Assembly (NCBI GenBank): GCA_949285255.1
Contig: CASDXV010000011.1
Span: 48,652 to 112,651, forward strand
DNA from: an uncultured bacterium
GTDB lineage: Bacteria > Cyanobacteriota > Vampirovibrionia > Gastranaerophilales > Gastranaerophilaceae
Direction: 5' to 3'
DNA length: 64,000 bases
In this document: piece after piece, positions 6,011-33,478 of the stretch
How the letters are laid out: every line of letters begins with the position of its first letter
Position numbering within the stretch: the first letter of the stretch is position 1
Made by a program: the position numbers and the translations under genes
Notes under the pieces: generated by a model
Seen by the model: only the letters and a program-made list of their open reading frames with translations
Databases searched by the model: none
What the model was told of the DNA's origin: nothing

Positions 6011-8131
6011 CTATACTGATTTTTCATTAACAGTAATAGCATCGGCAAAGTAATCAATGATTTTCGGGTCAACTTTTACCGCACGTTCAGTTGCCATTAC
6101 CTGACCATTAATATCATATTTACTTTCAACTCTATCTTTTAATTCAGGAGATGTTGCAACAAGACCTGTTTGAGTATTTACGCATTTTAGAACATTGGCT
6201 CTTTCGAAATCTTCCAATTCAAAATCACCTGAAGCAATCTGCATTGTAGTATGGTACAGTTGGTTCAAGCTGCCGCAATCAGCCCAAGGCTCATCTGTAG
6301 GAACTGCAACAATTTTTTGGTCTCCCAAGAGATTTTTTGCAAATAAAATCTCATCCATTGGAATATTTGATTCATTTGTATTAACAATTGAGGCAATTTC
6401 TTTTCTTATGGTAAACGGGTCATCATTTTGTGTCAGTGACATCAAAATAGGAGTTAAGCATTTAGACCAATCTCTTGGTTCCTTACCTTTGCCCGCAGGG
6501 AAATAAGGAGAAAGAATTTCAAGTGCTTTGAATGCTTCTTTGCTCACTGCAAACTGGAATGTATTTACCATACATTTACCCTCAGGTGAAATAAGGTCTT
6601 TGGAAGGATTTTTCGGTTTTTCAACAAACTGTAGTATCTCATTATTTTCACCAAGTTTCATAATACCAAAATTTTTTGCCAAAGACGGGTCAACTTCTTT
6701 TGCTATCATAACCATAGCAGCTTCCCCCGAATCAATAAGTTCTTTTGTTTTGACCATAGCATCAGTAACTCTGGAAATCGGGTCATTTGGCAAAATTAAC
6801 AAGTTTTCTCTGCCTGAGCGTTTCATCTTGTTATACATATCAATTGTAAAACCGCCGTTACCTTTGTTAACCCCTGATTTGTTTAAGTAAAATTTAACAT
6901 TTTTGCCTACTCCAAATACACCTTTTGAACAATCCAAAAGTCCTGCATTGTGAAGTGTAATAAATGTTGTTTCCATAGGAGTTAAACCTGTGGGGGTTCT
7001 GAACACACCCTTAGTAGATTGTGCACCATGTTCAATTTTTTCTTTATCCTTACCGTGAAAAATACCATCAGAAGAGGCATTTGTATATTCTGCACGTGAA
7101 CCAAAACCGCCTGCAAGCATTGCTATCTGTGTTTTATCGGCATCTGGTGCAGCAACAAAAGTATCAAGAACTATCTCTCCATTGTTAATTTTTTCTTCAA
7201 ATTCTACAATACTTTGAATAATTTCCGGAACAAAACGACCGTTTTCCATACCTATTACAATTTCAGTACCCTTACCCACAGAAGCTTCCGGATGTCTTTC
7301 ACGCACTTCTTGTGGTTGTGCTACAAACGGCACAAAGACATTTGCACCTTTTCTGGCATTAACTACAAGTGTTCCGTCAAGAGTATCTTTTTTAACTATT
7401 TTACCGGTATCTGTCATAAGAATATATCTGTCTACGGGGTTAGAAGCAGAATTATCCTCAACTACAGACATTAAGTTGCCTTTTGTGTTCAGTATATAAG
7501 CAAGCTCTTTCATAGGTTCAGATAATTTTGAATCCGGAGTTAATAAGACTCTGATATTTTGCTTCAATGGCAAAGATAAATCAGCACGCATTTTTCTAAC
7601 CGGTTTTGGCTGGCGAACAGCCATTTCGTACAAGAAATCTTCTCCGGCATTTTTAATTTGAGTTCTTGCAATAGTTTCATACGGAACAGTTTTTTCATAC
7701 ACATAATATCTTCCGGTAGAATTGTACTGCTGCTCATGTTTTTCTTTTCTGTCTTCATTTGAAACCACAATGTTTGTTTTAACCGCATCTTCATATTTAG
7801 GTAAAGAATCATGCAGTTCTTCAATGATTTCAGAAACATTTGCCCTGCTTCCTGTCATTTCACCTTTTATACCTGCAGCAGGGTCATCACAAGTAACAAC
7901 TTGCATGTTAAATTTATCAAATACTTCATTTAAAGAAAGACCGCCTGTAAAATTAACTGTTTTTGCAGTTTGAATACCGTTTAGTGCTTGATAAGCGCTA
8001 GCTAGTTTTGCAGCTTGGGTTTTTGAACCTTCAAAATTTACACTTTGTGCTTTTGCAGGTGTAACTGCAACATTTGAACGTAGTGCCTGATTTTTAACAT
8101 TTACAGGACTTAAACTGACTTTGTTTATCAT
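6011..8131 (-). CDS. Sugar-phosphate nucleotidyltransferase-like protein with large lineage-specific N-terminal region
   Basis: A nucleotidyltransferase domain begins near residue 330 (MLAGGFGSRAEY, the LxGGxGxR nucleotide-binding loop), followed by a TPMETTFITLHNAGL segment, LILPNDPIS and VEKPKNPS, all as in GlmU/GalU-like sugar pyrophosphorylases. The first 320 residues match nothing I recognise and carry two short motifs, VNFEG (31-35) and VNFTG (59-63), also seen near the N-termini of other proteins in this window. A ribosome site AAAGGA precedes the ATG. Likely product is an NDP-sugar, but the sugar cannot be inferred; 706 residues is about twice a simple pyrophosphorylase. Confidence 0.8.
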   Translation of the reverse strand: MINKVSLSPVNVKNQALRSNVAVTPAKAQSVNFEGSKTQAAKLASAYQALNGIQTAKTVNFTGGLSLNEVFDKFNMQVVTCDDPAAGIKGEMTGSRANVSEIIEELHDSLPKYEDAVKTNIVVSNEDRKEKHEQQYNSTGRYYVYEKTVPYETIARTQIKNAGEDFLYEMAVRQPKPVRKMRADLSLPLKQNIRVLLTPDSKLSEPMKELAYILNTKGNLMSVVEDNSASNPVDRYILMTDTGKIVKKDTLDGTLVVNARKGANVFVPFVAQPQEVRERHPEASVGKGTEIVIGMENGRFVPEIIQSIVEFEEKINNGEIVLDTFVAAPDADKTQIAMLAGGFGSRAEYTNASSDGIFHGKDKEKIEHGAQSTKGVFRTPTGLTPMETTFITLHNAGLLDCSKGVFGVGKNVKFYLNKSGVNKGNGGFTIDMYNKMKRSGRENLLILPNDPISRVTDAMVKTKELIDSGEAAMVMIAKEVDPSLAKNFGIMKLGENNEILQFVEKPKNPSKDLISPEGKCMVNTFQFAVSKEAFKALEILSPYFPAGKGKEPRDWSKCLTPILMSLTQNDDPFTIRKEIASIVNTNESNIPMDEILFAKNLLGDQKIVAVPTDEPWADCGSLNQLYHTTMQIASGDFELEDFERANVLKCVNTQTGLVATSPELKDRVESKYDINGQVMATERAVKVDPKIIDYFADAITVNEKSV

Positions 8132-8256
8132 TAGGATTTCCTTTCGCTATCCTCTCACAACTAACAACTTTTTGCATATTTAAGTATGCATGGTCTTAAC
8201 AACCGTGAAAAAAATATTTTGTTCTTTTTTTCACATAATTTACAAATATTCACAAT

Positions 8257-8922
8257 TTACTTAACAACACCTAAATCGAGAACCCTTTTAAGTTCTGATT
8301 TTATAATACCGTGGATTTCTTCTTTGCTTTTTGTTCCGTCTATTTCAATAAAGCCATATTCTTTTTCAAGTTTTTTATACTCGTCAAGACATCTTTTTTG
8401 ATAAATCTCAAAACTTTTGTAGATATCTGTTGATAAACCTATATCTCTTCCTGATTCAAAATAATCAAGCCCGCCTGAGGCGATAAGTCTTTTTATCAAA
8501 ATATCAGGAGGCATTTTTAAGTAAAACACCAAATCAGGCTCAGGGGCAAATTCGTAAAGTTTTTTTACCCAGTTAATATCATGACCTCTGACTGAATCTC
8601 GAACAAAGGCGGTGTAGACATATCTGTCCAGGAGCACTACAAAGCCTGCTTTAAGAGCAGGGATGATAACATTTTCCAGCCTGTCTGCGTAATCTGCTGC
8701 ATAAAGAAGAGAAAAAGTTGTGGTATTAAGGAGGTTTTTCTCCTTTGCTTCGTTAATAAGACCTGAGATAAGCCTTGAAGTTTTCCACTCGGAAACTACA
8801 CAGCCATAGCTTAAGCCCTCAACAAAGCCTTTTAGCATATTTACCTGTGTGGATTTTCCTGCCCCGTCAGTACCTTCAATAACAACAAGAAGTCCGTCAT
8901 AACCGTGTTTTTTATAAGTCAT
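8257..8922 (-). CDS. Thymidylate kinase-like protein, second of a tandem pair
   Basis: P-loop kinase of the dTMP kinase family, which phosphorylates dTMP to dTDP. GTDGAGKST (17-25) is the Walker A loop; LLDRYVYTAF corresponds to the DRY motif. It overlaps the upstream paralogue by 11 bases and shares long stretches with it, such as IIPALKAGF and DRYVYTAF, so the two arose by tandem duplication. The DRY segment is followed by TAFVRD where bacterial Tmk normally has a Ser-Ser-xx-Ala-Tyr-Gln stretch, so the substrate site is atypical. It could act on dTMP, on another nucleotide, or as a heterodimer with its neighbour. Confidence 0.82.
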   Translation of the reverse strand: MTYKKHGYDGLLVVIEGTDGAGKSTQVNMLKGFVEGLSYGCVVSEWKTSRLISGLINEAKEKNLLNTTTFSLLYAADYADRLENVIIPALKAGFVVLLDRYVYTAFVRDSVRGHDINWVKKLYEFAPEPDLVFYLKMPPDILIKRLIASGGLDYFESGRDIGLSTDIYKSFEIYQKRCLDEYKKLEKEYGFIEIDGTKSKEEIHGIIKSELKRVLDLGVVK

Positions 8923-9607
8923 TTTCGCCCTCTTTTATCTCAATACCTCTTTTTTTGAGCACATCGCACACAAGGCTTCTGAAGTACTTTTGTTTTTGAT
9001 GAATTGTTTCATTGGCGTCGATTTTAATAAGACCGTATTCATCAATCATATTTTTATACTGTTCAATAACTCTGTTTTGAAAAAGCACATAGCTTTTATA
9101 AGGGTTATTTGAAAGCTTTAAGTCCATGCCTGCTTCATAAAACTTCGGCTGACGATTTGTGCAAATTCTCTCAAGTGAAACCTTGGCACTTACATCAAAA
9201 TAAACGCTTAAATCGGGCTTAATTGCAAAACCGTACATGTTTCTGACCCACTTTGGGTCAACTTCACGTGCAACATCACGCGCAAAGGCAGTGTAGACGT
9301 ATCTGTCGGCAAGAACTATAAAACCTGCTTTAAGAGCGGGGATAATGGTACGCTCCAATCTGTCTGCAAAATCTACCGCATGCAAAATGGAAAACGTACG
9401 CCCCGAGAGGAGGTTTTTCTTTTTTGCACGTTTAGTTGTTTGAGAAATTAACTCAGATGAGTTCCACTGAGTCAAAATGACGTCAAGATTTTTTGACTTT
9501 AGCCAGCTGTACAATAAATCAAGCTGAGTACTTTTACCCGAACCGTCAATGCCTTCAACACAAATCAACACACCTTGCAGTTTATGGTCTTTTGAAAATC
9601 TTAACAT
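8912..9607 (-). CDS. Thymidylate kinase-like protein, first of a tandem pair
   Basis: P-loop kinase of the dTMP kinase family with Walker A GIDGSGKST (19-27) and LADRYVYTAFARD in the DRY region. The QWNSSELIS segment matches EWKTSRLIS in the downstream paralogue, and both lack the usual Tmk AYQ stretch. At 231 residues it is close to normal Tmk length. The gene has its own upstream region, then runs into the second copy with an 11-base overlap. Which of the two is the essential dTMP kinase, or whether both are needed, cannot be decided from sequence. Confidence 0.82.
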   Translation of the reverse strand: MLRFSKDHKLQGVLICVEGIDGSGKSTQLDLLYSWLKSKNLDVILTQWNSSELISQTTKRAKKKNLLSGRTFSILHAVDFADRLERTIIPALKAGFIVLADRYVYTAFARDVAREVDPKWVRNMYGFAIKPDLSVYFDVSAKVSLERICTNRQPKFYEAGMDLKLSNNPYKSYVLFQNRVIEQYKNMIDEYGLIKIDANETIHQKQKYFRSLVCDVLKKRGIEIKEGENDL

Positions 9608-9685
9608 TTTCTGCCTTGTTTTTTTTACCGTTTAACAATAATATCTATATAGTAAATCATAAATTGTAAAAGAGAGCAACAAAAA

Positions 9686-10567
9686 ATGATGTATCAAAGC
9701 GTTAAAAAAAGTATTTCCATAATCATTGATAACCCTGTATTAACACTTAGTTTTGTTATATATTTAATCTTTCTTACTTTTGTTATGCCAAAACTTTTTG
9801 TTTGGCAAAATGTAATTGTCTTTGCACTCATTGTGCTTTTAATACTGCTTTTTACCTCGGCATTTTTTGCAGGCTGGCTGCAAATGGTAAAAACAGCCAT
9901 TGAAAACTCAAAAAAAGAGGAGCGTAACGAGGAAGAGAGAGTAAAAGAATTTATTCAGATGAAAAACGACTTTTTTAGCGCCGTTCCCGTTTATATTTTG
10001 CCGATTTTAGGCGGAATTGTGCTTTATTTTATAATGTTCTTTTTGCTTGTTGCATTTAACATAAAATTTGCAAACCACTTTATCGGCAGGCTTGATTTTA
10101 TAGTAGACACCATAAACTCTATTCCTCAGGATTCTCAGGCGCTGCACGCTTTTGTAAGCAGCTTGCCTCAGGATAAAATAATGATTTTATGGAGCTGGCA
10201 GTTTTTATTTTTGTTTACCATAGGGATTTTTAACTTCCTTATAATGTTTTGGGCATCTGCTCTTTACTACCCCGAAAAGTGCACAACAAGCCCGCTTAGC
10301 GCTCTTAAAAACTCACTCTTTGCGATTTTTAAACACCCTGTAAAATCTTTAGCGCTTTATACTTTTATACTTATTTTAGGTATGCTCTTTAAAATCATAA
10401 GCATTTCTTTTGCCACAAATGTCGTTTTATACTTTATTTTTATGGTTTTAGCGATATATTTCTGGGTATTTGTATTTGTGCTAATATTTGACTATTATGA
10501 GTCAAGATTTTACAATCACGGTGATAACGGGTGCAACCTGCTCGGGAAAAACAAGTCTGTCAATTGA
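9686..10567 (+). CDS. Six-helix integral membrane protein of unknown function
   Basis: I do not recognise the family. Six hydrophobic segments are visible (about residues 10-30, 35-60, 98-125, 170-195, 220-245, 248-270) with a charged cytoplasmic-looking loop KKEERNEEERVKE between helices 2 and 3. The last 20 or so residues are hydrophilic and are encoded inside the first part of miaA in another frame: the overlap is 71 bases, unusually long. The proline-containing N-terminal helix recalls small DUF-type bacterial membrane proteins, but no function can be given. Confidence 0.7.
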   Translation: MMYQSVKKSISIIIDNPVLTLSFVIYLIFLTFVMPKLFVWQNVIVFALIVLLILLFTSAFFAGWLQMVKTAIENSKKEERNEEERVKEFIQMKNDFFSAVPVYILPILGGIVLYFIMFFLLVAFNIKFANHFIGRLDFIVDTINSIPQDSQALHAFVSSLPQDKIMILWSWQFLFLFTIGIFNFLIMFWASALYYPEKCTTSPLSALKNSLFAIFKHPVKSLALYTFILILGMLFKIISISFATNVVLYFIFMVLAIYFWVFVFVLIFDYYESRFYNHGDNGCNLLGKNKSVN

Positions 10568-11369
10568 TTTGGCTAAAAAAATTAACGCAGAGATTATCTG
10601 TGCAGACTCAAGAAGTGTGTACAGGGGTCTTGATATTGTAAGCGCTAAACCCAAAAAAGAAGAAATGCAGGGCGTAAAACACCACCTGCTTGATATTATA
10701 ACGCCTGATTGCGACTTTAGCGCAGGTGATTTTGCAAAAGAGGCGCAGCGAACAATTGAACAAATTAAAAAAGAAGGTAAAAATGTAATTGTAACGGGCG
10801 GCACGTGGTTTTATATAAAATCTCTGCTTGATGATAAAAAACTGCCTCAAGTCGGCATTAACAAAAAACTAAGAGAGGAGCTAAACCCAAAAACGCCTGA
10901 TGAACTCTGGGATATGCTCTATAAACTCGATAGCACAAGGGCGCAGCAAATTCATAAAAACAACAAAGATAAAGTCATCCGCTCAATTGAGATGTGTATC
11001 GGGCTTAATATGCCTATATCAGAGTATATTAGGGAAGATAAAGAGCAATACGACACAAAATGGTTCATGCCAAAAATCGAGCGGGAAGAACTGTATCAAA
11101 GAATAAATAAAAGAGTAGATATTATGGCAGGCGAGGGGCTCTATGACGAGTGGCAAAAAAATAAAACCCTCTACCCCAACTCAAAAGTGCTTGAGAACAC
11201 CATAGGCTACAGGGAATTTTTTGAACTTGAGCGAGGCGAGTATAAAAACTTTGACGAGGCGGTTGATAAGATTAAACAAAGGACAAGAAACTTTGCAAAG
11301 CGCCAGCTTACATATTTTCGCTCAAATAAAGACATAAAAAGTATTGGCGATATTGGGGAAATAATCTAA
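10497..11369 (+). CDS. miaA: tRNA dimethylallyltransferase MiaA
   Basis: Transfers a dimethylallyl group to A37 of tRNAs that read UNN codons. GATCSGKT is the P-loop, DSRSVYRGLDIVSAKP the DSxQ(R)Y substrate region, HHLLDI the conserved catalytic-loop motif, and TGGTWFYIKSLL and RNFAKRQLTYFR are further MiaA signatures. About 290 residues is normal. I take the ATG at 10497 rather than the TTG three codons upstream. The start lies 71 bases inside the upstream membrane-protein gene, so translational coupling is likely. A strong hairpin follows the stop. Confidence 0.95.
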   Translation: MSQDFTITVITGATCSGKTSLSIDLAKKINAEIICADSRSVYRGLDIVSAKPKKEEMQGVKHHLLDIITPDCDFSAGDFAKEAQRTIEQIKKEGKNVIVTGGTWFYIKSLLDDKKLPQVGINKKLREELNPKTPDELWDMLYKLDSTRAQQIHKNNKDKVIRSIEMCIGLNMPISEYIREDKEQYDTKWFMPKIEREELYQRINKRVDIMAGEGLYDEWQKNKTLYPNSKVLENTIGYREFFELERGEYKNFDEAVDKIKQRTRNFAKRQLTYFRSNKDIKSIGDIGEII

Positions 11370-11394
11370 AAACCCCTGCAATTTGCAGGGGTTT
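11370..11394. terminator. Bidirectional terminator between miaA and hpf
   Basis: AAACCCCTGCA and TGCAGGGGTTT form an 11-bp stem with a 3-nt loop, flanked by A and T runs, between two convergent genes. It can serve both. Confidence 0.88.
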
Positions 11395-11427
11395 AATCTG
11401 TTATCTATTAAATTTTTATTGTGCTTA

Positions 11428-11787
11428 TTATTTAGCCGCCTCTTCATCAGCAATAACTTCTGTTCTGATTGAAGGTGAGCCGCTTTTTGCTTTCAAGTAT
11501 TTTTCTTTGTACTTTCTTACTTGTCTGTCCAGTTTGTCGCACACTAAATCGATTGAAGCATACATTGACTCAGCTTTTTCTTCAACTCTTACAGTGTCAC
11601 CCAGTACTTTGCAGTTAATTTCCGCAACGTGAGAGTCTGCAACGGACGGATTTTTAATAACGGTTAAAACAACGTCAATTGCCTGAATTTGGTCATAATG
11701 TGCCGCAACTTTACCGGCTTTTTCTTTAACGTAGGCTTTAATTGCGTCAGTAATTTCTACGTTACGTCCGTTTACGTGAATATGCAT
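11428..11787 (-). CDS. hpf: Ribosome hibernation promoting factor, short form
   Basis: Binds the 30S decoding site and helps park ribosomes when growth slows. MHIHVNGRNVEITDAIKAYVKEK is the standard start of the HPF/YfiA fold, followed by DVVLTV and a YASIDLVCDKLDRQVRKYKEK helix. I place the start at ATG 11787 because GGAG lies 6 nt upstream; an upstream ATG at 11826 would add 13 unmatched residues. At 119 residues it lacks the C-terminal dimerisation domain of long HPF, so it may pair with another factor or act as the short type. Confidence 0.92.
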   Translation of the reverse strand: MHIHVNGRNVEITDAIKAYVKEKAGKVAAHYDQIQAIDVVLTVIKNPSVADSHVAEINCKVLGDTVRVEEKAESMYASIDLVCDKLDRQVRKYKEKYLKAKSGSPSIRTEVIADEEAAK

Positions 11788-11939
11788 AGTTTCTCCGTTT
11801 CTAGCCATATACTCTCTATATAGCAACTTTTCTTATTATACAACATCGAATTGTATTTTTAAAGACACAAATAGTAAAAAATTTAAAATTTGTAGTATAA
11901 TTGGTGACAGACGCAAAAAATCGTGAGAGGAAAAAAATT

Positions 11940-13175
11940 ATGCAGAACTTTAGCAACTACATGGGTACACTTGAAACTTACATCATGTTTCAAATTAAGG
12001 CAAAAATGCTTGCAATGAAAGATGAACTCACGAAAAAAGGCAGAAAGCCCATCGCTCTTTCTATGGGAGCACCTGTTGATATGGTTCCGCAGTTTGTAAT
12101 TGAAAGAACAAAAGAACTTCTTAATGACCCTAAAAACCACACCTACTCTACTCCAAAAGGTGAAGTTCCTTTTCTTGAAGCTGTAGCAAAACGTATGAAA
12201 AACCGCTTTGGTGTTGAACTTGACCCTAAAAGCGAAGTATTTTCTCTAATCGGTTCAAAAGAAGGTATCGCAAACTTTATAAGGGCTCTTATTAACCCCT
12301 CAATGGATAAAAATGAACAAGAAATAATAATGATACCAGACCCCGGGTATGCTTCATACACTGAAATGATTAAAGTTTCAGGCGGCAGAGCATACGGTGT
12401 ACCTTTAACAAAAGAAAATAACTACATGCCTGACTTAGATGAAGTTTGGGAAAAATTCCTAAAAGAAGGTAACAACCCTAAAAAAGTTAAGGCTTTAATT
12501 ATAAACTATCCTAACAACCCTCTTGGCTGCACTTGCGATAAAAAATACCTGCAGCACTGCGTAGATTTCTGTAAAAAACACAATATTATTCTTATGTCAG
12601 ATAATGCATACAGTGAAATTTATTTTGATGAAAACGACAAACCCCACTCGGTACTTGAATGCAACGGTGCTATGGATGTAGCGGTTGAGTTTCACAGTTT
12701 TTCTAAACCCTACGCTATGACAGGCTGGCGTTTAGGCTGGGTATGCGGAAATAAAGACCTTGTATCAACTTTTGGCAAATTAAAATCCAGCCTCGATACA
12801 GGCGTATTTAAAGTACTTCAGTTTGCAGGTGCTGAGCTTCTTAACTCAAAAGAGGGCGATGAGTACATTAAAGAAGCAAATGAAAAATTTAAAAAGAAAA
12901 TAGGTGACTTTGTAGACGGGCTAAACGAGCTGGGCTGGAGTGTAGAAATGCCAAAAGCTACGTTCTACCTATGGATTGACCTGCCTCCAAGATACAAAAA
13001 TGCAAAAGAATTTTGCGATGAACTTCTTGAAAAATCAGGTATAGTAGCAGTGCCGGGGGACGCTTTTGGCGATGAGGGTGCAGGACACTTAAGACTTTCT
13101 ATCGTAGCTGATGAAAAAGAACTAAAAGAAGTTATTCAACGTATGAAAGAAGACGGTCACACTTTTGTCAAATAA
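11940..13175 (+). CDS. Class I/II PLP aminotransferase, LL-diaminopimelate aminotransferase-like
   Basis: Fold-type I aminotransferase. Landmarks: SMGAPVDM near the N-terminus, GSKEGIANF (cofactor phosphate region), NYPNNPLGC, SDNAYSEIYF (Asp/Tyr contacts to PLP), the Schiff-base lysine in HSFSKPYAMTGWRLGW and the carboxylate-binding arginine in LRLSIV. The SKPYAMTGWRLGW and YPNNPLG pattern resembles DapL/aspartate-type enzymes. DapL makes LL-diaminopimelate from tetrahydrodipicolinate for lysine and peptidoglycan. Aspartate aminotransferase remains possible. Start at ATG 11940, after GAGAGGA; the stop overlaps hisH by 11 bases. Confidence 0.85.
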   Translation: MQNFSNYMGTLETYIMFQIKAKMLAMKDELTKKGRKPIALSMGAPVDMVPQFVIERTKELLNDPKNHTYSTPKGEVPFLEAVAKRMKNRFGVELDPKSEVFSLIGSKEGIANFIRALINPSMDKNEQEIIMIPDPGYASYTEMIKVSGGRAYGVPLTKENNYMPDLDEVWEKFLKEGNNPKKVKALIINYPNNPLGCTCDKKYLQHCVDFCKKHNIILMSDNAYSEIYFDENDKPHSVLECNGAMDVAVEFHSFSKPYAMTGWRLGWVCGNKDLVSTFGKLKSSLDTGVFKVLQFAGAELLNSKEGDEYIKEANEKFKKKIGDFVDGLNELGWSVEMPKATFYLWIDLPPRYKNAKEFCDELLEKSGIVAVPGDAFGDEGAGHLRLSIVADEKELKEVIQRMKEDGHTFVK

Positions 13176-13758
13176 AGTTATAATAATAGACTACGGCGCA
13201 GGCAATGTTAAAAGCCTTGGAAATATGCTCGAGTTTTTGGGCGCAGATTATGAAATAACTGAAGATAAAGAAAAAATCCTCAGTGCAAAAAAAATAATCT
13301 TCCCCGGACAAGGGCACTTTGAGCAGGCTATGAAAAAACTAAATGAAAAAAACATGCCTAAAACCATAAAAAAAGCAATATCTAACGGGGCAGATTTCTT
13401 AGGAATTTGCCTCGGTTTACAGGTTCTTTTTGAAAAAAGTGAAGAAGCACCAAATGTAGAGGGGCTTGGAATTTTTAAAGGCGAAGTTAAAAAATTTCAA
13501 ACAGGCAAAACACCTCAAATAGGCTGGAATAATATCAAAACAACAAATGCTGATACATATCTTGAGGATGATTACTTCTACTTTGTAAACTCTTACTACG
13601 TAGTGCCTCAAGATGAGAGCATTATAAGCTCAATAACAAACTATCACATTGACTTTTGCTCATCAGTTCAAAAAGACAATGTCTGCGCGGTGCAATTTCA
13701 CCCCGAGAAAAGCTCAGATGCCGGTGTGAGATTTTTTCAAAAATGGCTTAAGTTATGA
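13165..13758 (+). CDS. hisH: Imidazole glycerol phosphate synthase, glutamine amidotransferase subunit HisH
   Basis: Class I glutaminase that feeds ammonia to HisF in histidine biosynthesis. IIDYGAGNVKSLGNML is the HisH N-terminus, GICLGLQVLF holds the nucleophile Cys82, and QFHPEKSS the catalytic His-Glu pair. The start is a TTG that overlaps the aminotransferase stop by 11 bases, so it is co-translated with it. HisF and other his genes are not in the window. The stop shares TTATGA with the stop of the convergent GGDEF gene (6-base overlap), leaving no room for a terminator. Confidence 0.93.
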   Translation: MSNKVIIIDYGAGNVKSLGNMLEFLGADYEITEDKEKILSAKKIIFPGQGHFEQAMKKLNEKNMPKTIKKAISNGADFLGICLGLQVLFEKSEEAPNVEGLGIFKGEVKKFQTGKTPQIGWNNIKTTNADTYLEDDYFYFVNSYYVVPQDESIISSITNYHIDFCSSVQKDNVCAVQFHPEKSSDAGVRFFQKWLKL

Positions 13759-22545: not shown

Positions 22546-23064
22546 TTATCTTTCGGGGTTTGATTTTGTTACGATATCGTAAATTTCTTTTATTGCAAAT
22601 CCGCCTGCAACAACGGCAGTAAGAGCTGCAGCGGCAAGTTTAACACCTTTTGCACCTTTGTGTTCTTTAGCAAATTTTACAATACCGTCTTTTGCGCCTT
22701 TAAGTGTTTCAACAACTTTTGCTTTTGCACCCTTAAGAGCATCAAGCGCTTTTGCGCCGAATTTTTTATTTGCTTCTACTGTTTGTTCCACTTGTTCTGC
22801 TTTAGGAGCTTTTTTAAAGCGAGCAACTATACCGCCAAAGAAATTAGGAACAGTTTCTTTAAAGAATTTAGGCAGTGTTTCTTTAAAGAAAGTAGCTACT
22901 TTTGAACCAATTGTTTTAAATACTTTTGGAAGAGCAACTTTTCCTTTTTTAGCACCTTCTTGAGCAGTTTCAGCTACGGGAACAGCGTTACCAAAAGAAA
23001 CAGAATTTCTTGGAACTTGTGGTCTGTTTAGCGATGAACCTGCGTTAATTGCACTGATATTCAT
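22546..23064 (-). CDS. Ala/Lys-rich helical protein with N-terminal SFG motif
   Basis: No family is recognised. N-terminus MNISAINAGSS leads to VSFGN at 22-26. Then come a short internal repeat (FFKETLPKFFKETVPNFF, about 58-75), a Lys/Ala-rich amphipathic stretch with repeated KGAK units (106-144) and one hydrophobic segment near 145-160 (KLAAAALTAVVAGGFAI). The composition suggests a membrane- or nucleic-acid-associated protein. It lies next to another unknown with the same type of N-terminus, separated by 35 bases, probably one operon. Confidence 0.65.
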   Translation of the reverse strand: MNISAINAGSSLNRPQVPRNSVSFGNAVPVAETAQEGAKKGKVALPKVFKTIGSKVATFFKETLPKFFKETVPNFFGGIVARFKKAPKAEQVEQTVEANKKFGAKALDALKGAKAKVVETLKGAKDGIVKFAKEHKGAKGVKLAAAALTAVVAGGFAIKEIYDIVTKSNPER

Positions 23065-23099
23065 TATACTTTCCTTTCAATTATTACTTTCAAATAAAC

Positions 23100-23747
23100 C
23101 TATACAGCATCACCTAAACCTAAAGCACCGGCAACTTTTGCCAAGTCTTTAAAGGTATCTTTAAGGGTTGCCTCTTTTTGTGTCTCATCAGCAATGTCGC
23201 CAACTTCTCGACCTGCAAGAGTTGCAGCACCGACTGCTATTGCAGTATCAGCAACATCTCCGCCTGTTTTAATGCCTATTTTATCAAGACCATTCATAAC
23301 AGAATCTGCATTTTTACCAAATAATTTAGTTATACCCTTTTTAAGCAATGTTCCATCGCCCTTAGCTGATAATTTTGAGGTATTTTCTGCCATATCTTTT
23401 GCTACATCGGATATTGTATCATTTTTTACCTTAGCTCCGACATTACCGATTTTACCTGCCACTTTTGAAGTTGCGGCAGCAATACCGTGTCTTAACTTTG
23501 GAGCAACTTTTCTGAATGATAAAGCTGCTGCCGAAAAACCTGCAACCGATGCCAGCGTATTAACTAACTTTCTGCCGGTTTCAGTCTTTTTTAACTTTCC
23601 GTCTAAAACATCAGCAACAACATCAGGATTAAAGTCTTTATCAATATCAAAATCGCCTCTTTCAAGAGCTTCAGCACGAGCTTCCAGAACCTCGGGAGTG
23701 AGTCTTGATGATGAAAAATTAACACCTGTAACATTTTGTATTTGCAT
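23100..23747 (-). CDS. Unknown helical protein with N-terminal VNF motif
   Basis: 215 residues, family not recognised. MQIQNVTG leads into VNFSS at 9-13, the same position and type of motif as in four other proteins here. The middle has small-residue-rich segments (VNTLASVAGFSAAALSF, TAIAVGAATLAGREVGDIA) that could be weak membrane helices. A TATAAT near 23868 suggests a promoter about 115 bases upstream and hence a long leader. First gene of a probable two-gene operon with the SFG protein. Confidence 0.6.
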   Translation of the reverse strand: MQIQNVTGVNFSSSRLTPEVLEARAEALERGDFDIDKDFNPDVVADVLDGKLKKTETGRKLVNTLASVAGFSAAALSFRKVAPKLRHGIAAATSKVAGKIGNVGAKVKNDTISDVAKDMAENTSKLSAKGDGTLLKKGITKLFGKNADSVMNGLDKIGIKTGGDVADTAIAVGAATLAGREVGDIADETQKEATLKDTFKDLAKVAGALGLGDAV

Positions 23748-23885
23748 TTTTATGCTCCTAACCTTGCACCCATGGAAAGTCTGTAAAGATTTTTTTTTGC
23801 TCTATTATCGATATTTATTTAAAAAATTTTACAAAACTTAACACCTGACAACAAAGCATTTTTTAAATTATACACCAATTTAAGC

Positions 23886-25106: not shown

Positions 25107-25120
25107 AGTATAATTCTATC

Positions 25121-26362: not shown

Positions 26363-27056
26363 CGCTTTCACCTTTTTTTATTTTCTCAAGAGTTTTGCTT
26401 GAGCCTTCTTGCTCTTTAGAGAGTTCAAGTACAAAATCTATAGCCTCGCTATCACGCCTTATTGCCTCTTTTAATGCCATAATCTGTGCATAGCTAAGCT
26501 CTTGAACTTTTTTAGGGTCAGCAAATTCAAAAACTCTTTTAAAGTTTTCCTGAGTAGTTTCATCATACCCCGGCAGTTTCATTTTATACGAATACCACTT
26601 GTGGAACTGATGAGACATTACATAGATATTTAAAGGTAAATCCCTTAAAACAAACATCTCAGGAGTCTTAAAAGATACTTTTTTATTTAAAACCAAATTA
26701 AGATACAGTGCCTCAAAACCGCTCTTTGGAGTGATAAAGCCCTCTTGTTCTTTTACATAAGATAAAATCTTATCCGCATGAGCGATTTTTATAACTCTTG
26801 TACCTGATTTTTCAACATATTCAAGAAGTTTTTCAGGGGTTTTAATATTCTTTTTAACAATTTTTTTAACAACACTTTTAAGCTTTTGCATTTTTTCCTT
26901 TGTTTTTATATCAAAAGAAACCGTCGCAAAAGAAGTTATATGCGAGCTTGATAAACCGTTTGAATATGAATACATATTCTTATCAGGCAATTTTGGCGCA
27001 TTTTTTTCCTGCATTGATAAAATCTGATTTAATAATAATCTTAATAATTTCCTCAT
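26352..27056 (-). CDS. Protein of unknown function
   Basis: About 234 residues. I take the ATG at 27056 (MRKLLRLLLNQIL), but no ribosome site supports any start; an ATG at 27161 would add a Phe/Lys-rich stretch. The basic middle (KLKSVVKKIVKKN, about 80-95) and a later YVMSHQFHKWYSYKMKLPGY segment are the only distinctive features. No domain is recognised. It ends 11 bases inside the solute-binding gene on the other strand and is divergent from the F-x-G trio starting at 27162. Confidence 0.6.
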   Translation of the reverse strand: MRKLLRLLLNQILSMQEKNAPKLPDKNMYSYSNGLSSSHITSFATVSFDIKTKEKMQKLKSVVKKIVKKNIKTPEKLLEYVEKSGTRVIKIAHADKILSYVKEQEGFITPKSGFEALYLNLVLNKKVSFKTPEMFVLRDLPLNIYVMSHQFHKWYSYKMKLPGYDETTQENFKRVFEFADPKKVQELSYAQIMALKEAIRRDSEAIDFVLELSKEQEGSSKTLEKIKKGESATV

Positions 27057-27161
27057 AACTATATAAAAACTTATCTTAACAAAAAATTGCTTGAAAAAAA
27101 TTTTTTGTGAGAAAATAAAAATCTTGAGAGGGTTTTTATAACCGAAAGCCGAATCCATCAC

Positions 27162-27920
27162 ATGAAAATAAACAGTTTAGAAAAAGCAAATTTTAAAGGT
27201 TATTCAAGCGCTATAAAAAGAGCGCAATATGCCGCTGCGGATAAATTTGCAAAAATAGATAAAATAGGAGAGGGCACAAATATTGCTCTTGATTTTATAG
27301 GTAAAGCCGTTCTTGTACCGGCGACAATTATGGTGGCATCAAAAGAACCAAAAGAAAAAAAGGAATACTCAGCTCTTAAAAACCCTGTAGCTGCAGCATT
27401 TCAGTTAATGATGGAAGCGCCGATTTTGATGCTTGGTTCAAATTTTATAGAAAAACTTGCAAACAAAGGCAAGCTTGATAAAGAGGGCAGCAATTTTTCA
27501 TACAATGAAAAATTATACAAAGATAAATTTGTTGAAAGTGTAAAATCCGCAGCAAAAGAAGATAAAAATTTTGAAAGTATAAGCGGCGAGCTTTTGGAAA
27601 AATTAGACAAAAAAGGGCTTGGCAGAAATCTTAAAGAGAATTTCTACGACGCTATAGAAAACAGCACAATAAGCACAAAAGAAACTCTTAAAAAATCTCT
27701 TAAGGAATTTGATTCAACGCACAAAAGACTATACCACCTGCAAAACAGAGTCTGCTTTGTTGCAGCAATAGCTCTAACCCCGATTTTATGCAAAGCGGAA
27801 GATTATTTCTTCCCCAAAATTATGAATCTCATAAAACACCCCCAGGAAAATAAAAAGCCCAAAATGAGAATCTCGCTTTATCATTTTAAAGCACAAAGTG
27901 CAAAAGGAGGTATAAAATGA
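27162..27920 (+). CDS. Unknown membrane-associated protein with N-terminal NFKG motif
   Basis: 252 residues, family not recognised. MKINSLEKANFKGYSS carries the F-x-G motif at 10-13. Hydrophobic stretches occur near 42-60 (IALDFIGKAVLVPATIMVA), 80-95 (AAAFQLMMEAPILMLG) and 200-212 (VCFVAAIALTPIL), so it likely contacts a membrane. It is first of three closely spaced genes; the next begins inside its last codons (4-base overlap). Confidence 0.65.
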   Translation: MKINSLEKANFKGYSSAIKRAQYAAADKFAKIDKIGEGTNIALDFIGKAVLVPATIMVASKEPKEKKEYSALKNPVAAAFQLMMEAPILMLGSNFIEKLANKGKLDKEGSNFSYNEKLYKDKFVESVKSAAKEDKNFESISGELLEKLDKKGLGRNLKENFYDAIENSTISTKETLKKSLKEFDSTHKRLYHLQNRVCFVAAIALTPILCKAEDYFFPKIMNLIKHPQENKKPKMRISLYHFKAQSAKGGIK

Positions 27921-28408
27921 TAAAACCTGTAGAAAAAAGCTTAAACAAATTTGCAAATTCTCCTTTTGTTAAAAAGCATATTGATAAGTGCATTAAAAAC
28001 CCTGAATTTTTAACAAAAACCCTTTTAGTTACTAGCGTTTCAAAAGATGTTTTTGCGTACGCTCTTAGGGTACATAACACCATGAAAAACAATGAAATAC
28101 CCGAGGATAAAAAATCTTTTGTTGCAAAAATGGACGCTACAACAGGCTTTATAACAGCAATAGTACAAATCTCAGCAGGTCTTGCCCTTGCAAACAAAAA
28201 AGTTCAAAGTGCAATGTGTAAAAAATTATTCTCGGTACTTGATGAAAACTCTAAACAATTCAAACAGGCAAGTGCTGGTTTTGGTGCGGTTTCAACTCTT
28301 GTAGGCGCAACAGTTTTAGCAAAAAGAATACTTGTCCCTCTAATATCAGCCCCTATTGCAGGATATCTTGAAAACAAACATATAAATAACAACAAAAAAG
28401 CAATTTAA
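27917..28408 (+). CDS. Unknown membrane protein, second of a trio
   Basis: 163 residues with three hydrophobic stretches (about 65-85 around TTGFITAIVQISAGLALA, 108-125, 132-148) and charged ends. AAAGGAGG sits 6 nt before the ATG inside the upstream gene, so it is translated with it. No family recognised. It shares with its neighbour a membrane-associated character but no clear sequence similarity that I can see. Confidence 0.6.
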   Translation: MIKPVEKSLNKFANSPFVKKHIDKCIKNPEFLTKTLLVTSVSKDVFAYALRVHNTMKNNEIPEDKKSFVAKMDATTGFITAIVQISAGLALANKKVQSAMCKKLFSVLDENSKQFKQASAGFGAVSTLVGATVLAKRILVPLISAPIAGYLENKHINNNKKAI

Positions 28409-28433
28409 AAGTCCGTTTTGTTTTATTAAAAGT

Positions 28434-28700
28434 ATGACAAGTCCTATTAATAACACTAATACTCAAATGACTTTTACGCCTCCAAAGGTAGGTGTTGTAC
28501 CAACGCCGCCAAAAACAGGAGGCATTTCAAAGGACACGCTTGAAATTACAAATGCAAAAGCACCGCAAGAGCTAAAAACAGCGGGTATTAAAAAGAAAAA
28601 AAGCCCGATAAATATAGTTAACTACCTATGGCTTGGAGTAGGGCTCATATCATCAGCTATTGCAGGCAGCGAATTTTTAAAACTCATAAAAAAACATTAA
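28434..28700 (+). CDS. Small C-terminally anchored protein, third of a trio
   Basis: 88 residues: a Thr/Pro-rich, disordered-looking N-terminal half (TPPKVGVVPTPPKTGG) and one C-terminal hydrophobic helix (IVNYLWLGVGLISSAIAGSEFL) ending in KKH. This layout suggests a tail-anchored protein facing the cytoplasm. It follows the second trio gene by 25 bases. No clear ribosome site precedes the ATG. No family recognised. Confidence 0.5.
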   Translation: MTSPINNTNTQMTFTPPKVGVVPTPPKTGGISKDTLEITNAKAPQELKTAGIKKKKSPINIVNYLWLGVGLISSAIAGSEFLKLIKKH

Positions 28701-28761
28701 TTTAATTGCAATATTTATAATCCGCCCATATAATATTCTTGTAGTATTAAAAGGTGGATTT

Positions 28762-29421
28762 ATGAAAACAAAACAGGGTTTTACACTTGCAGAGGTACTC
28801 ATCACCCTAACTATTATTGGTGTTGTGGCATCAATGACAATACCCTCCCTTATTATGAATATTGATTTGGATAGAAAACAGGCAGAAGCTGAAGTTAAAA
28901 AAGTATACACCGCAGTAAATGACGCAACAAAACAAATAGTTATGTTAGAAACCACATCTCACAGTATGGCAAAAGTCAATTGCGCAAATAACGACTGCAT
29001 AAGAGATTTGTACGCTAAATATATGCAATTTGTAAAAACTTGCTCTTCAGGCTCGCAAACCGCTTGTCTTGACGGGGCAACAGCAACATCAAACGATACA
29101 ACAAGTTTCTACCCTAGCGCAGCATACGCTGCAGACCCGACATCGACCGGGGTAGATTTTACCGACAAATCTCTTGCGGTATTAGCTGATGGCGCACTTT
29201 TAGGCTTTAAATACGACAATACGTGTTCTCTCACAACAAAAACTGTTATTACATATGAAGAAGAACCAATAGATGTAACAGGGGCATGCGTTGAAATAGC
29301 GGTTGATGTAAACGGAGCAAAAAAACCAAATAAAACAGCCAAAGACAGATACCAATTTCCTGTCGGAAAACTTGGTGTAAAAATGATACCAAAAAATAAT
29401 GCCGCAACAACCACTCCTTAA
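28762..29421 (+). CDS. Type IV pilin/pseudopilin-like prepilin
   Basis: The N-terminus has the prepilin peptidase site and methylation helix: a short KTKQG leader, then FTLAEVLITLTIIGVVAS. After cleavage at G/F the helix would assemble into a pilus or type II secretion pseudopilus. The rest is soluble with Cys residues (NCANNDCIRDL, TCSSGSQTACL) that could form disulfides, and an FPVGKLGVKMIP end. A ribosome site AAGGTGG precedes the ATG. A strong terminator follows. Single gene; no pilus machinery in the window. Confidence 0.88.
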   Translation: MKTKQGFTLAEVLITLTIIGVVASMTIPSLIMNIDLDRKQAEAEVKKVYTAVNDATKQIVMLETTSHSMAKVNCANNDCIRDLYAKYMQFVKTCSSGSQTACLDGATATSNDTTSFYPSAAYAADPTSTGVDFTDKSLAVLADGALLGFKYDNTCSLTTKTVITYEEEPIDVTGACVEIAVDVNGAKKPNKTAKDRYQFPVGKLGVKMIPKNNAATTTP

Positions 29422-29436
29422 AAAATATTAAAATAA

Positions 29437-29464
29437 AATCGGGGGTCTAAGCCCCCGATTTTTT
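29437..29464. terminator. Terminator after the prepilin gene
   Basis: AATCGGGGG and CCCCCGATT pair across a 6-nt loop and are followed by a T run; it sits between convergent genes and may serve both. Confidence 0.9.
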
Positions 29465-29476
29465 ATGAACAAAATC

Positions 29477-30694
29477 TTATGCCATAGGTTTCATAGATTC
29501 TTTATATATTGCTTCAACCCTTTCTTTTGTAGCCTCATTTGGTGCTATTGCAAGCAGACCGTCAAGCGATGGTGTTGTAAAGGCGAGATTTGTGAGCTTT
29601 TCTACATCAGGGTCACAATAGCCCATATCTTCAAGTTTTTCTTTAACACCTATTTCAAAGAGCCATTTTTCAACTCCAAGTGCTGCTTTTTTGGCGTCAG
29701 CTGCTTCAGCTTTTAAGTCAGGTACAATAGGCTCTAAAATATCAGCCAATGTTGCGGCTTTATCGGGATAAATTGTTTTAATTACCGCAGGTAACAGTAT
29801 TGCAAGTCCAAGACCGTGAGAGAGGTCATGTTTTACCGCGCTTAGCGGATGCTCAAGAGCGTGAGTATAATGTAAAAGTCCGTTATCAAAGCATATACCG
29901 CCTAATAGTGCAGCATACATTAAGAAATACCTTGCTTCCATATCTTCAGGATTTTTAAGCGCAAGAGGCAGATATTTTGCAACAAGTCTTATTGTTTCTT
30001 TTGCAATTGAAATAGTGTAGGGCGATGCAACTTTACTTGTTGCAGCCTCCACAACGTGATTTATAGCATCAATTGATGTATACATTGTTTGTTTAGGGCT
30101 TAATTTAACACAAACCTTAGGGTCATCTATTGAATATGACGGATAAATACAATCATAAGCAATAGCGGGCTTGAAGTCTTTTTTAACAACCGTTGCTACC
30201 GCAAAGCGGTTTGCCTCAGTTCCTGTACCGTGAGTTAAATTAACCGCTACAACAGGTACTGCACTATCAGGTGCAAATTTGTATTCATAAAGTTCATCCG
30301 CTGTTTTATCCTGATATTTTTTATCCATTAAAACAGCAACACTTTTACCTGTATCGATTGGAGAGCCGCCGCCTATTGCAATTACCGCTTTTGCACCAAA
30401 ATCAAGTGCGATTTTTTTAGCTTCATCTATACCATCTGTTGTAGGGTTTGGAGTAACTTTATCGTAATTTACATAACCTATTGAGTTATCTTTTAATGAC
30501 TTTTCTATAATATCCCAGGCTCCTGTTGCCTTATAAGCGTTTCTGCCTGATATAACAATAACTTTATCTACACCTTTTGTTTTTAGGTCTTTAAGTATGT
30601 CATCAATTTTGTGCATAGCGCCAACGCCAAAGTACACCTTAGCGCGCGAGATAATTTCTTTTACCTCGTTAATGTTAATGTCTTTTTCCCACAT
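29477..30694 (-). CDS. Iron-containing alcohol dehydrogenase
   Basis: Fe-ADH (type III) family: cofactor loop AVIAIGGGSPIDTGK, metal ligands in SIDAINHVVEAA, LHYTHALEHPLSA and KHDLSHGLG, and THGTGTEANRFAVAT. Such enzymes reduce aldehydes or oxidise alcohols with NAD(P), often in fermentation, which suits an anaerobic gut organism. I place the start at ATG 30694 because AAGGAG lies 6 nt upstream; a start at 30772 would add 26 residues. 405 residues is a normal length. Substrate unknown (butanol, lactaldehyde or others). Confidence 0.93.
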   Translation of the reverse strand: MWEKDININEVKEIISRAKVYFGVGAMHKIDDILKDLKTKGVDKVIVISGRNAYKATGAWDIIEKSLKDNSIGYVNYDKVTPNPTTDGIDEAKKIALDFGAKAVIAIGGGSPIDTGKSVAVLMDKKYQDKTADELYEYKFAPDSAVPVVAVNLTHGTGTEANRFAVATVVKKDFKPAIAYDCIYPSYSIDDPKVCVKLSPKQTMYTSIDAINHVVEAATSKVASPYTISIAKETIRLVAKYLPLALKNPEDMEARYFLMYAALLGGICFDNGLLHYTHALEHPLSAVKHDLSHGLGLAILLPAVIKTIYPDKAATLADILEPIVPDLKAEAADAKKAALGVEKWLFEIGVKEKLEDMGYCDPDVEKLTNLAFTTPSLDGLLAIAPNEATKERVEAIYKESMKPMA

Positions 30695-30841
30695 AAGTAA
30701 CTCCTTTTTTGTAAAATATTTACAAGACAAGTATAGCATTTTTTTAAACTTTTGTAACAAATATTTTATCAAAATAAATTTTCCTGTATAAAAAAAATAT
30801 TCACAAGACTATAAATAGCATAGATTCTTTAGGAAGTTAAA

Positions 30842-33478
30842 ATGAAAATACCCAGCATTAACAATATTAAAAATTATACAAATTTTTCGGGCAAAAATGA
30901 AAAAAAACCTAAAATAGACCAACCAAATTATGCTTATCTCCCGATAACCGCAGAACAAAGATTATTCAACGACAGAATAACAAGACAAATTGAAAAAATT
31001 AAACAAGAAATTGAAAAAAAAGAAAATCCTTGGGCAAATGACCCGATAATACAAAACCGCCAACAAATACAAGAACAAAGAGAGCTAAATCCTGACCCGT
31101 TTTTGCTAAGAGCTCAAAGTTTAAGAAAAAATCAGGCAAAAGCTCTTGATATGGAAAAAATAAAATCCATAATTCTCCCTTCAAGTCAATCATTAGAACT
31201 GCGCTCATTTGAAGATTCAGATAAAAAATACACTCTTGACAGATACCAAAAAGAGGCGGTTGACGCTTTTATATCAGGAAAAAATACAATCGTTACAGCA
31301 CCAACGGGCACAGGTAAAACCTTAATTGCAGAATACGGTATAGAAGACGCACTAAAAAGGGGTGAGAGAATAATCTACCTTTCTCCTCTTAAAGCCCTGA
31401 GTAATGAAAAATTTGTTAAATTTTCGGAACTGTTTGGCAAATACGACAAAGACGGAAATTTCATTCACTCTGATGACGTAGGTATTATAACAGGCGATGT
31501 TACAATTAACCCTGACGCGCAGCTTCTTGTTATGACAACAGAAATTTATCGCAACATGGTTAATATGTCTGAACCTGATGAAACCGCTGAAATATTTAGA
31601 GATTTTTCAGGGGTTATTTATGATGAATTTCACTACCTTAAAGACCCTGACAGAGGAACAGTCTGGGAAGAGTCAGTTATGCAGACTCCAAAACATATGC
31701 GCCAGATGATGTTATCAGCAACCGCCTCAAATGCGGCAGAAATATCAAAATGGCTTAATAAAGTAAGCCCTGATAACGGAACTAAACTTATAGATGTGCC
31801 TGAAGATGAAAGGTATGTACCGCTTAAAGAATACGTGTTCGGTTACAAATACCCTATGGGATACACAATAGAGCAAGCATATAACAGAAAAATAGATTTA
31901 GGCTACCTTGAAAATCCTAAAGGCGACAGAGTAATTGAAACAATTCAAGAACTTGAAGACTTATATGAGGGCAAAAATTATCTTGATATATTAAAAAGTT
32001 ACTCCGATGGCAGCAATATAATTGATGCAGAGAGGTTTTCAGGTATATTAACTTCGCAAAAAGGCGTAAATCACGAAAAAGCACAACAAATCGCCTATGT
32101 TTTATCAAACCCGAATAAGACAAAAAGAACGGATGTTAAGTTAAACTATGCACCAAAAAATCCCCCCATACCGCCTCTTGTAAAACTTCTTAATGACAAA
32201 GACAAGACTCCTGCACTTTTCTTCTTATTTTCCAAGAAAAAATGCAAAAAAGCGCTTGATGAAACATCTTTAAAACTTGGAACGCTGCTTACCCCCGAAC
32301 AGTCAAAAAGAGTGCTTGATATAGTTCAAGAGGCAAAAGAAAAAGGTATCTATCTTGGTGATGATTTTGAAAGCGATTATCTGCCAAAACTTTTAATGGG
32401 TTATGCCGTACACCATGCCGGTATGCTGCCTGCGTATAAAAGTCTTGTAGAAAAACTCTCAAGAGAAGGACTTATTAAAGCCTGCTTTGCAACTGAAACT
32501 CTGCTTGCAGGTATCAATATGCCCTTTAAAACAACGGTATTTACCTCAATTGAAAAATTTGACGGCAGAAAAATGGTAGAAATTCCTCCCACAAACTACA
32601 AACAAGGTGCGGGAAGAGCCGGCAGAAGAGGAATAGACGACCTTGGAAATGTCATTATCTGCCCTACTTCAGATAGAGAACTCTCAAGATTTAGAACAAT
32701 AATAGAATCCGATGATACAAAAATTTCAAGCTCTTTTAATCTGTCATACGCTACACTTCTTCAAAACTCAACCATAAATAATCTGGATGAATTTTTAAAA
32801 GACAGTTTCTTTGCTCATCAAGCAGGTTCTACTCAAAAAATCAAAAAAGAAGCGCGCAGAAAACTTGCTTACTTAAGGGACAAAGACTACATTTACTACG
32901 AAGATGGCAAAAATCATCTGACATACAAAGGTGAAATGGCAAAAAATGTTTATGGAATAAACCAAGTATTATTCTGTGAAATTATGAAAAATCCAAAATA
33001 CACTCAAGACCTTACGCCTCAAGAACTTGCAGCTCTTATGGTAATGTTTGCCGATGTTAAAGACGATAAACCAAGAGATACATTTGACGACGATTTGGCA
33101 GATGTAGCGCAAAAATTAAGCCCTGCAATAGATTTAGCTAAACAAATCCAAAAAGAACAGTCTGAAAAGAAAATTGATGAGCCCATAAAAATGAGTACAA
33201 ATCTTGTTCCTGCAATTTTAAAATTTGCCTATTCACCATATTACAGCGATGAAGAATGTTTGGAACAATGGCAGAACATATTTAATGACTTAAAATCAAA
33301 ATATATAATAATGCATGAAGGCGACTTAATGAGAGTATTTAACGGTACAATTGATTTGCTCAGAACAATTGCCGAGGTAACTGATGACCCCATACTTGAG
33401 AAAAAAGCGGATAATGCTATAAAATGCCTCAAAAAACCGCCTGTGACAGATATTTTAAAATACGAATTGGATATTTAA
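30842..33478 (+). CDS. Ski2/Mtr4-like DExH-box RNA helicase with N-terminal NFSG motif
   Basis: Superfamily 2 helicase. After about 130 lineage-specific residues containing NFSG (14-17), motif I is APTGTGKT, motif Ia YLSPLKALSNEKF, motif II DEFH (VIYDEFHYLKD), motif III LSATASNA, then an AVHHAGMLP segment, ETLLAGINMP and QGAGRAGRRG (motif VI). This order is that of Ski2/Mtr4-like helicases, which remodel RNA for decay; a role in RNA turnover is inferred. AGGAAG precedes the ATG. A terminator follows. Confidence 0.9.
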   Translation: MKIPSINNIKNYTNFSGKNEKKPKIDQPNYAYLPITAEQRLFNDRITRQIEKIKQEIEKKENPWANDPIIQNRQQIQEQRELNPDPFLLRAQSLRKNQAKALDMEKIKSIILPSSQSLELRSFEDSDKKYTLDRYQKEAVDAFISGKNTIVTAPTGTGKTLIAEYGIEDALKRGERIIYLSPLKALSNEKFVKFSELFGKYDKDGNFIHSDDVGIITGDVTINPDAQLLVMTTEIYRNMVNMSEPDETAEIFRDFSGVIYDEFHYLKDPDRGTVWEESVMQTPKHMRQMMLSATASNAAEISKWLNKVSPDNGTKLIDVPEDERYVPLKEYVFGYKYPMGYTIEQAYNRKIDLGYLENPKGDRVIETIQELEDLYEGKNYLDILKSYSDGSNIIDAERFSGILTSQKGVNHEKAQQIAYVLSNPNKTKRTDVKLNYAPKNPPIPPLVKLLNDKDKTPALFFLFSKKKCKKALDETSLKLGTLLTPEQSKRVLDIVQEAKEKGIYLGDDFESDYLPKLLMGYAVHHAGMLPAYKSLVEKLSREGLIKACFATETLLAGINMPFKTTVFTSIEKFDGRKMVEIPPTNYKQGAGRAGRRGIDDLGNVIICPTSDRELSRFRTIIESDDTKISSSFNLSYATLLQNSTINNLDEFLKDSFFAHQAGSTQKIKKEARRKLAYLRDKDYIYYEDGKNHLTYKGEMAKNVYGINQVLFCEIMKNPKYTQDLTPQELAALMVMFADVKDDKPRDTFDDDLADVAQKLSPAIDLAKQIQKEQSEKKIDEPIKMSTNLVPAILKFAYSPYYSDEECLEQWQNIFNDLKSKYIIMHEGDLMRVFNGTIDLLRTIAEVTDDPILEKKADNAIKCLKKPPVTDILKYELDI

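Follow-up and report, generated by a model that had tools for sequence, protein, structure and literature searches.

A two-part N-terminal tag on otherwise dissimilar proteins of a Gastranaerophilales family, and its possible relation to flagellum-derived export

Five genes in a 64,000-nucleotide stretch of DNA (the window, C11:48652-112651 of a 1.6-Mb genome in 43 contigs) encode proteins that begin with similar short sequences and share no other similarity, which raises the question of whether a common module has been placed on their N-termini and, if so, what might read it. Type III secretion signals are generally regarded as having no readable common consensus. A conserved tag, if true, would allow a list of exported or sorted proteins to be drawn up from sequence for uncultured relatives of cyanobacteria in the gut. 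Candidatus Gastranaerophilales, to which the genome belongs, are described in the available portion of one report as non-photosynthetic relatives of cyanobacteria (PMC3787301).

A two-part N-terminal tag occurs beyond chance

All five proteins carry their motifs at the coordinates and residues given in an earlier note (Table 1), and the absence of any other similarity among them, which that note had also claimed, was borne out, as their bodies belong to different families or to none: three of the five had no match in Pfam, the other two being a GlgC-like nucleotidyltransferase and a DEAD/DSHCT helicase. Its claim of extra N-terminal sequence on these two was likewise confirmed by comparison with relatives. 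The helicase domain begins at residue 134 of the 878-aa protein and ordinary GlgC-type proteins of 411 aa start straight at the catalytic domain, as do helicase relatives of ~770 aa at theirs, so that both N-terminal pieces appear to be added modules. A search of the same genome with the NTP_transf_2 profile gave no match. The 172-aa protein has a single membrane-like segment close to its C-terminus, and a 120-aa relative in another genome (G036, L074:2579-2941) begins similarly. With a mean pLDDT of 40.7, structure prediction for the 215-aa protein was of poor quality; it shows no predicted structure at residues 1-17, which is little informative at such pLDDT.

Table 1. Tagged N-termini in the window, with the F motifs they contain.
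Protein	Tag residues	Tag position	Strand	Tag sequence	F motif	
GlgC-like nucleotidyltransferase, 706 aa (6011-8131)	1-63	7943..8131	-		VNFEG (residues 31-35; 8027-8041); VNFTG (residues 59-63; 7943-7957)	
172-aa protein (22546-23064)	1-26	22987..23064	-	MNISAIN...VSFGN	VSFGN (residues 22-26)	
215-aa protein (23100-23747)	1-13	23709..23747	-	MQIQNVTGVNFSS	VNFSS (residues 9-13)	
252-aa protein (27162-27920)	1-13	27162..27200	+	MKINSLEKANFKG	ANFKG (residues 9-13)	
Ski2-like helicase, 878 aa (30842-33478)	1-17	30842..30892	+	MKIPSINNIKNYTNFSG	TNFSG (residues 13-17)	

Two gene arrangements in the window involve overlaps. At 27162-28408, the gene of the tagged 252-aa protein shares 4 bases with one for a 163-aa protein, and a comparable pair occurs in other genomes, where ~480-aa relatives of the 252-aa protein are accompanied by a partner of ~160-207 aa. 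The other is a tandem pair of overlapping kinase-like genes (8257-9607), which by eye resemble thymidylate kinase.

In its full form the tag reads M-[KR]-[IV]-x-x-[IV], followed by a variable polar linker and then by [SNA]-F-x-[GR]-[KR]. The earlier note's proposal turned on whether the motif exceeds background; this holds for the paired form and fails for F-x-G taken alone, which occurs within residues 4-45 of 53 of 393 proteins of the same genome vs 46.2 expected from protein interiors. NF-x-G was found in 6 vs 2.6 expected among the same proteins, and the present motif did not emerge from a search for single enriched gapped patterns. Pairing an M-x-[IV] start with an F motif within 65 residues gave 19 carriers among 697 usable proteins (of 816), vs a mean of 4.4 and a maximum of 11 in 300 shuffles of residues 4-65; an interior control yielded 2 of 52, and comparison with other starts gave a Fisher p of 8e-7. 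A looser paired expression showed a weaker excess in this genome (20 vs 8.95, maximum 17 of 200 shuffles) and none that was significant in G036, G032 and G006, and it picked up 3 carriers vs 0.56 shuffled in the outgroup G159.

To these expressions we added a two-block matrix trained on 84 non-redundant N-termini that came from four families (helicase, 252/480-aa, 215-aa and transferase) and included no sequence of the genome under study. Its first block is M-[KR]-[IV]-x-x-[IV]-[NS] and its second [QNS]-[PIV]-[SNAT]-F-[TSGKR]-G-[RK]-[KR]. At low cut-offs it found 15 carriers vs 6.42 in this genome, and 2 vs 0.28 in the outgroup G147, of which by eye one has a signal-peptide-like and one an ABC-transporter-like start. 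At a combined score of at least 18, 13 of 1,193 proteins from five family genomes qualified, vs 1.09 in shuffles (maximum 5 of 300) and 1.64 in a swapped control (maximum 6). When the training families were left out, 7 carriers remained among 1,184 proteins vs 0.78 expected, and none of 500 shuffles that preserved the composition of residues 8-70 reached 7. The scored sets excluded proteins whose first 65-70 residues contained a hydrophobic run of 9 residues, proteins shorter than 80 aa and genes cut at the start of a stretch. The two-part tag is therefore present beyond chance.

Outside the family, no protein among 560 reached a score of 18, a small sample; it was made up of 316 proteins from four f2 and f34 genomes, which have FlhA and lack flagellin, and 244 from four f31 genomes, which lack FHIPEP. 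Gene starts came from a simple gene caller that called only 32 genes in 100 kb of G175, which makes the outgroup zero soft. Restriction of the tag to this Gastranaerophilales family is thus partly supported: in the earlier note's picture of a lineage-restricted module on unrelated proteins, the module is upheld by the position statistics and the orthologues, and its absence elsewhere was seen in small samples only.

Conservation in orthologues and range of carriers

Comparison of orthologous sequences indicates that both ends of the tag are kept and that the linker between them varies. A strict expression found both parts in 35 of 67 usable helicases, and the F motif in 37 of the 67 vs 4.9 after shuffling (maximum 10 of 200); an interior stretch gave none. 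Scored with the matrix (in sample), block 2 was present in 65 of 75, with F at a median residue of 15 (range 11-59). In a less related set of helicases (P0093-P0137, not sorted by taxon) 29 members were usable, and 18 of these had the F motif; helicases without 90 residues before the P-loop had been dropped from both sets (8 of 75 and 16 of 45). Among homologues of the 252-aa protein, members of the ~480-aa family, an M-x(1,2)-[IV] start occurred in all 24 and the F motif in 18, vs 1.9 in shuffles (maximum 7 of 300).

MalQ (GH77) is a carrier known from relatives' genomes. An expression matched 13 of 16 MalQ orthologues vs 0.15 in shuffles (maximum 2 of 300) and a fuller consensus all 16, with F at residues 12-24, although both were devised post hoc after MalQ starts had been inspected and the start of L214 was taken from its second Met. 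All 16 carry F-x-[RE]-[RK] behind differing linkers, and in the hydrophobic end of each, residue 3 is [IV] and residue 6 is [IVL]. A Sec signal peptide would have a hydrophobic core within its N-terminal 30 residues; no 9-residue hydrophobic run was seen in the MalQ tags inspected; such runs had been excluded from the scored sets.

The earlier note's supposition that the N-terminal segments are conserved in orthologues held, with exceptions in three families. [NS]F[STK]S was present in 12 of 17 homologues of the 215-aa protein. Of four transferase orthologues inspected, two had two F motifs (L118 and L119) and two had none (L120 and L122). Among 13 GlgX loci, a tag-like start was confined to two copies from the genus of the genome under study; two more had extensions with no clear motif. 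The genome itself holds one tag-like and one untagged copy of GlgX, and its two helicase copies, on C33 and C11, are likewise one tagged and the other untagged. The tag has thus been gained and lost gene by gene, in some cases by a second copy.

By eye, 27 of 850 genes sampled from this genome carry the tag, and a hand list over five family genomes, to which no statistic is attached, holds 46. A family scan of 33 carriers or candidates, together with single scans, returned several enzyme families and many proteins without a match. Among the carriers were two AAA proteins, one near proteasome-activating nucleotidase, Cdc48 and FtsH and the other near CdvC, a DEAD/DSHCT helicase, a GlgX-like debranching enzyme, a GlgC-like transferase, an SLT transglycosylase and a subtilase, as well as a protein with a weak ADP-ribosyltransferase-like (PARP) match (E 0.0028). 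Alpha-glucan enzymes are thus tagged in three kinds: GlgC-like, MalQ and, with a weak tag, GlgX. A tagged protein of 1,321 aa on C11 (L065:9864-13829) has no family match. Its assignment as GlgB/TreZ-like was wrong, the weak amylase-type matches belonging to its 589-aa neighbour (L065:13947-15716), which has a block 1 start and no clear F motif. On C6, a gene cluster tagged by eye (L006:3128-16588) comprises two AAA proteins and several functionally uncharacterised ones.

We also compared the membrane-like segments of carriers with those of controls. Cut-offs of 2.1 and 2.2 on hydrophobicity gave p 0.051 and 0.037, but the lower hydrophobicity that these would offer in support of export fails the fairer control of a rank test, by which carrier segments were not less hydrophobic (p 0.40; p 0.92 with at most two segments).

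Export-gate genes in the family

Components of a type III gate are found almost throughout the family. All but one of 146 family genomes, including all 126 of high quality, have an FHIPEP (FlhA-type) match (145 genomes), and in a class sample FHIPEP was present in 52 and FlhB in 51 of 52 family genomes. Two FlhA classes can be told apart among the matches listed, one scoring 847-885 bits in 58 of the 146 genomes and the others from about 736 bits down. Flagellin was found in 1 of the 52, namely the genome under study, a figure that is not descriptive of the whole family since only one of the 52 has the high-scoring FlhA. In three genomes (G045, G259 and G299, two of them 97-99% complete) FHIPEP matched only at the level of a standalone domain, and full FlhA may be absent from them; G045 nonetheless has a weak tag on a 175-aa homologue (L115).

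The genome under study has two FlhA operons. The flagellar gate operon on C21 (L140:10314-15376) has FlhA of the high-scoring kind, and by eye FliPQR are in the flagellar operon. The other lies on C11, 30 kb upstream of the window (L139:8495-16698), and contains FlhA of the lower-scoring class, FliH, FliF, FliE, an SLT gene and, at the position of FliG, a protein without family assignment; its first gene encodes 501 aa and, judged by eye, carries the tag. The tag does not depend on a motile flagellum, since G006 and G145 are tagged and have neither a flagellin match nor high-scoring FlhA.

A further protein, of ~490 aa, is a standalone FlhA cytosolic domain (for example L142:10724-12202 in G006, L145:9710-11170 in G145 and L003:12641-14089 in the genome under study). 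Of 60 family genomes 57 encode it, two with a copy that is cut or broken. It matches FHIPEP 309-653 (E 1.5e-48) and, by sequence, solved structures of the FlhA cytosolic domain such as 3mix. It differs from these in having its own N-terminal part of ~125 residues, lacks the membrane part of FHIPEP, and lies directly upstream of tagged MalQ in 16 of 30 loci, with a gap of 23-76 bases; in the other 14, and in the genome under study, MalQ does not adjoin it. Only 7 of 60 family genomes encode a contractile sheath, the one under study not among them, and contractile injection was accordingly rejected as a family-wide reader of the tag.

Export, docking and other readings of the tag

We tentatively read the tag as an export signal for a flagellum-derived type III apparatus, at a probability of roughly 0.37, and barely prefer this to an intracellular docking tag. 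A cytosolic gate component, be it FlhB, FlhA or the standalone FlhA domain, would bind the F-x-[GR]-[KR] element, after which the hydrophobic end of the tag, M-[KR]-[IV]-x-x-[IV], would pass into the gate; the gate concerned would be one that does not depend on flagellin. Exported cargo would comprise alpha-glucan enzymes, AAA proteins, the subtilase, the RNA helicase and small proteins with membrane-like segments. Export is favoured because the tag exceeds chance and is kept in orthologues, because FlhA-type and FlhB genes are found in nearly all family genomes, because the standalone FlhA domain so often lies just upstream of MalQ, and because GlgX and MalQ have a parallel in Chlamydia. A conserved tag of this kind would explain the gate genes kept in family genomes without flagellar-type FlhA, and would offer a way to study what these gut bacteria do with host or diet glucans.

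According to the available part of one report on Chlamydia trachomatis, heterologous testing showed that the N-terminal 20 residues of GlgA, GlgB, GlgX, GlgP and MalQ act as type III secretion signals, whereas GlgC was not secreted (PMC4829429). GlgX and MalQ, N-terminal signals and a type III gate are common to both systems, whereas that part of the report states no shared consensus (PMC4829429), the GlgX tag is weak here and the apparatus here is of flagellar type. The gut melainabacterium MEL.A1 is described in the accessible text of its report as having a flagellin-less flagellar basal body, interpreted as ongoing genome reduction (PMC3787301), and the available part of a termite-gut genome paper mentions partial flagellar sets in earlier genomes (PMC5877343). 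As in MEL.A1, filament genes are gone here and other flagellar genes kept, but FlhA-type matches persist in all but one of the family genomes though the high-scoring flagellar type is found in only 58, a persistence that speaks for a retained function. Titles and listings of open-licence full texts yielded no paper describing the tag or assigning Gastranaerophilales a type III role.

The gate recognition motif has the pattern F-x-x-x-hydrophobic. Early flagellar subunits such as FlgD combine a hydrophobic N-terminus with this motif, which in FlgD occupies residues 36-40 with the hydrophobic residues at least 27 residues ahead of it, as given in the available portion of the source (PMC8983047). 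The tag resembles such a signal in its short hydrophobic extreme N-terminus, tolerant spacer and second element, and a flagellar-type gate is there in nearly all family genomes. It differs in its shorter spacer, F standing at the residues given above for helicases and MalQ, in the position four residues after F, which is rich in K/R/Q/N within an F-x-[GR]-[KR] element, and in being carried by enzymes instead of rod and hook subunits. Both the spacing of at least 27 residues and the F-x-x-x-hydrophobic pattern failed for the tag, which is therefore not the known early flagellar bipartite signal.

This unlikeness in spacing and F element counts against export, as do several other observations. 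The f2 and f34 outgroups have FlhA and no tag at score 18, so that the apparatus does not imply the tag; conversely, three family genomes may be without full FlhA, one of them still weakly tagged, and matches turned up in the outgroups G159 and G147 under lax rules. The rank tests showed no difference in the hydrophobicity of membrane segments, and in one tagged carrier, an SLT protein (L055:1372-2403), a segment could serve as an anchor that leaves the tag on the cytosolic side. The helicase and AAA proteins would be unusual cargo, chlamydial GlgC was not secreted and yet a GlgC-like protein is tagged here, and MalQ stands apart from the FlhA domain in nearly half of the loci. A broader form of the export reading, which we think rather unlikely, is that a flagellar gate turned into a general second secretion route with a consensus tag, read by the freestanding FlhA domain and exporting duplicate core enzymes of alpha-glucan, RNA and protein processing.

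Glucan enzymes often work together on a granule. In the second reading, which we hold with similar reserve, the tag would dock or localise proteins inside the cell. A cytosolic scaffold would bind it and so bring together, at a granule, a pole or a patch of membrane, a second enzyme set made up of alpha-glucan metabolism, the RNA helicase, AAA proteins and membrane proteins whose tag lies in the cytosol; that scaffold could be the standalone FlhA cytosolic domain, which would then not belong to an exporter. The tag statistics and conservation serve docking equally well, and so would glucan enzymes on a granule, the tag's unlikeness to the known export signal, internal membrane-like segments that could hold the tag of some carriers in the cytosol, and the enzyme paralogues with an untagged partner (helicase, GlgX and, in G036, GlgC). 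Set against these, no scaffold or compartment protein was found, and the subtilase and the weak PARP match among the carriers resemble exported proteins. Even if the tag served docking only, an address on a few percent of sampled genes, family-wide, would point to an undescribed compartment or scaffold.

ClpX recognises N-motifs with Met-basic-hydrophobic starts. Turnover control through an N-terminal degron or unfoldase-adaptor site would suit the M-[KR]-[IV] start and the AAA ATPases among the carriers, but we consider it highly unlikely given that the second element, F-x-[GR]-[KR], is also kept, at a free distance, and is not known to be part of such degrons. Least likely of all is a low-GC start bias, in which M-K-I starts and polar tails rich in N would follow from AT-rich early codons, with F-x-G arising by chance: block 1 alone is indeed common (55 of 718 usable proteins of this genome), F-x-G alone is at background and the lax excess is not significant in three genomes, but the composition-keeping shuffles and the element kept behind differing MalQ linkers refute such a bias for strong carriers, and it may hold for weak ones.

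Elsewhere in the window, a 270-aa protein (44898-45710) has LysM at its N-terminus and an EF-hand at its C-terminus, and two adjoining small paralogues (60597-61319) have signal-peptide-like starts and a TTVYGE end common to both.
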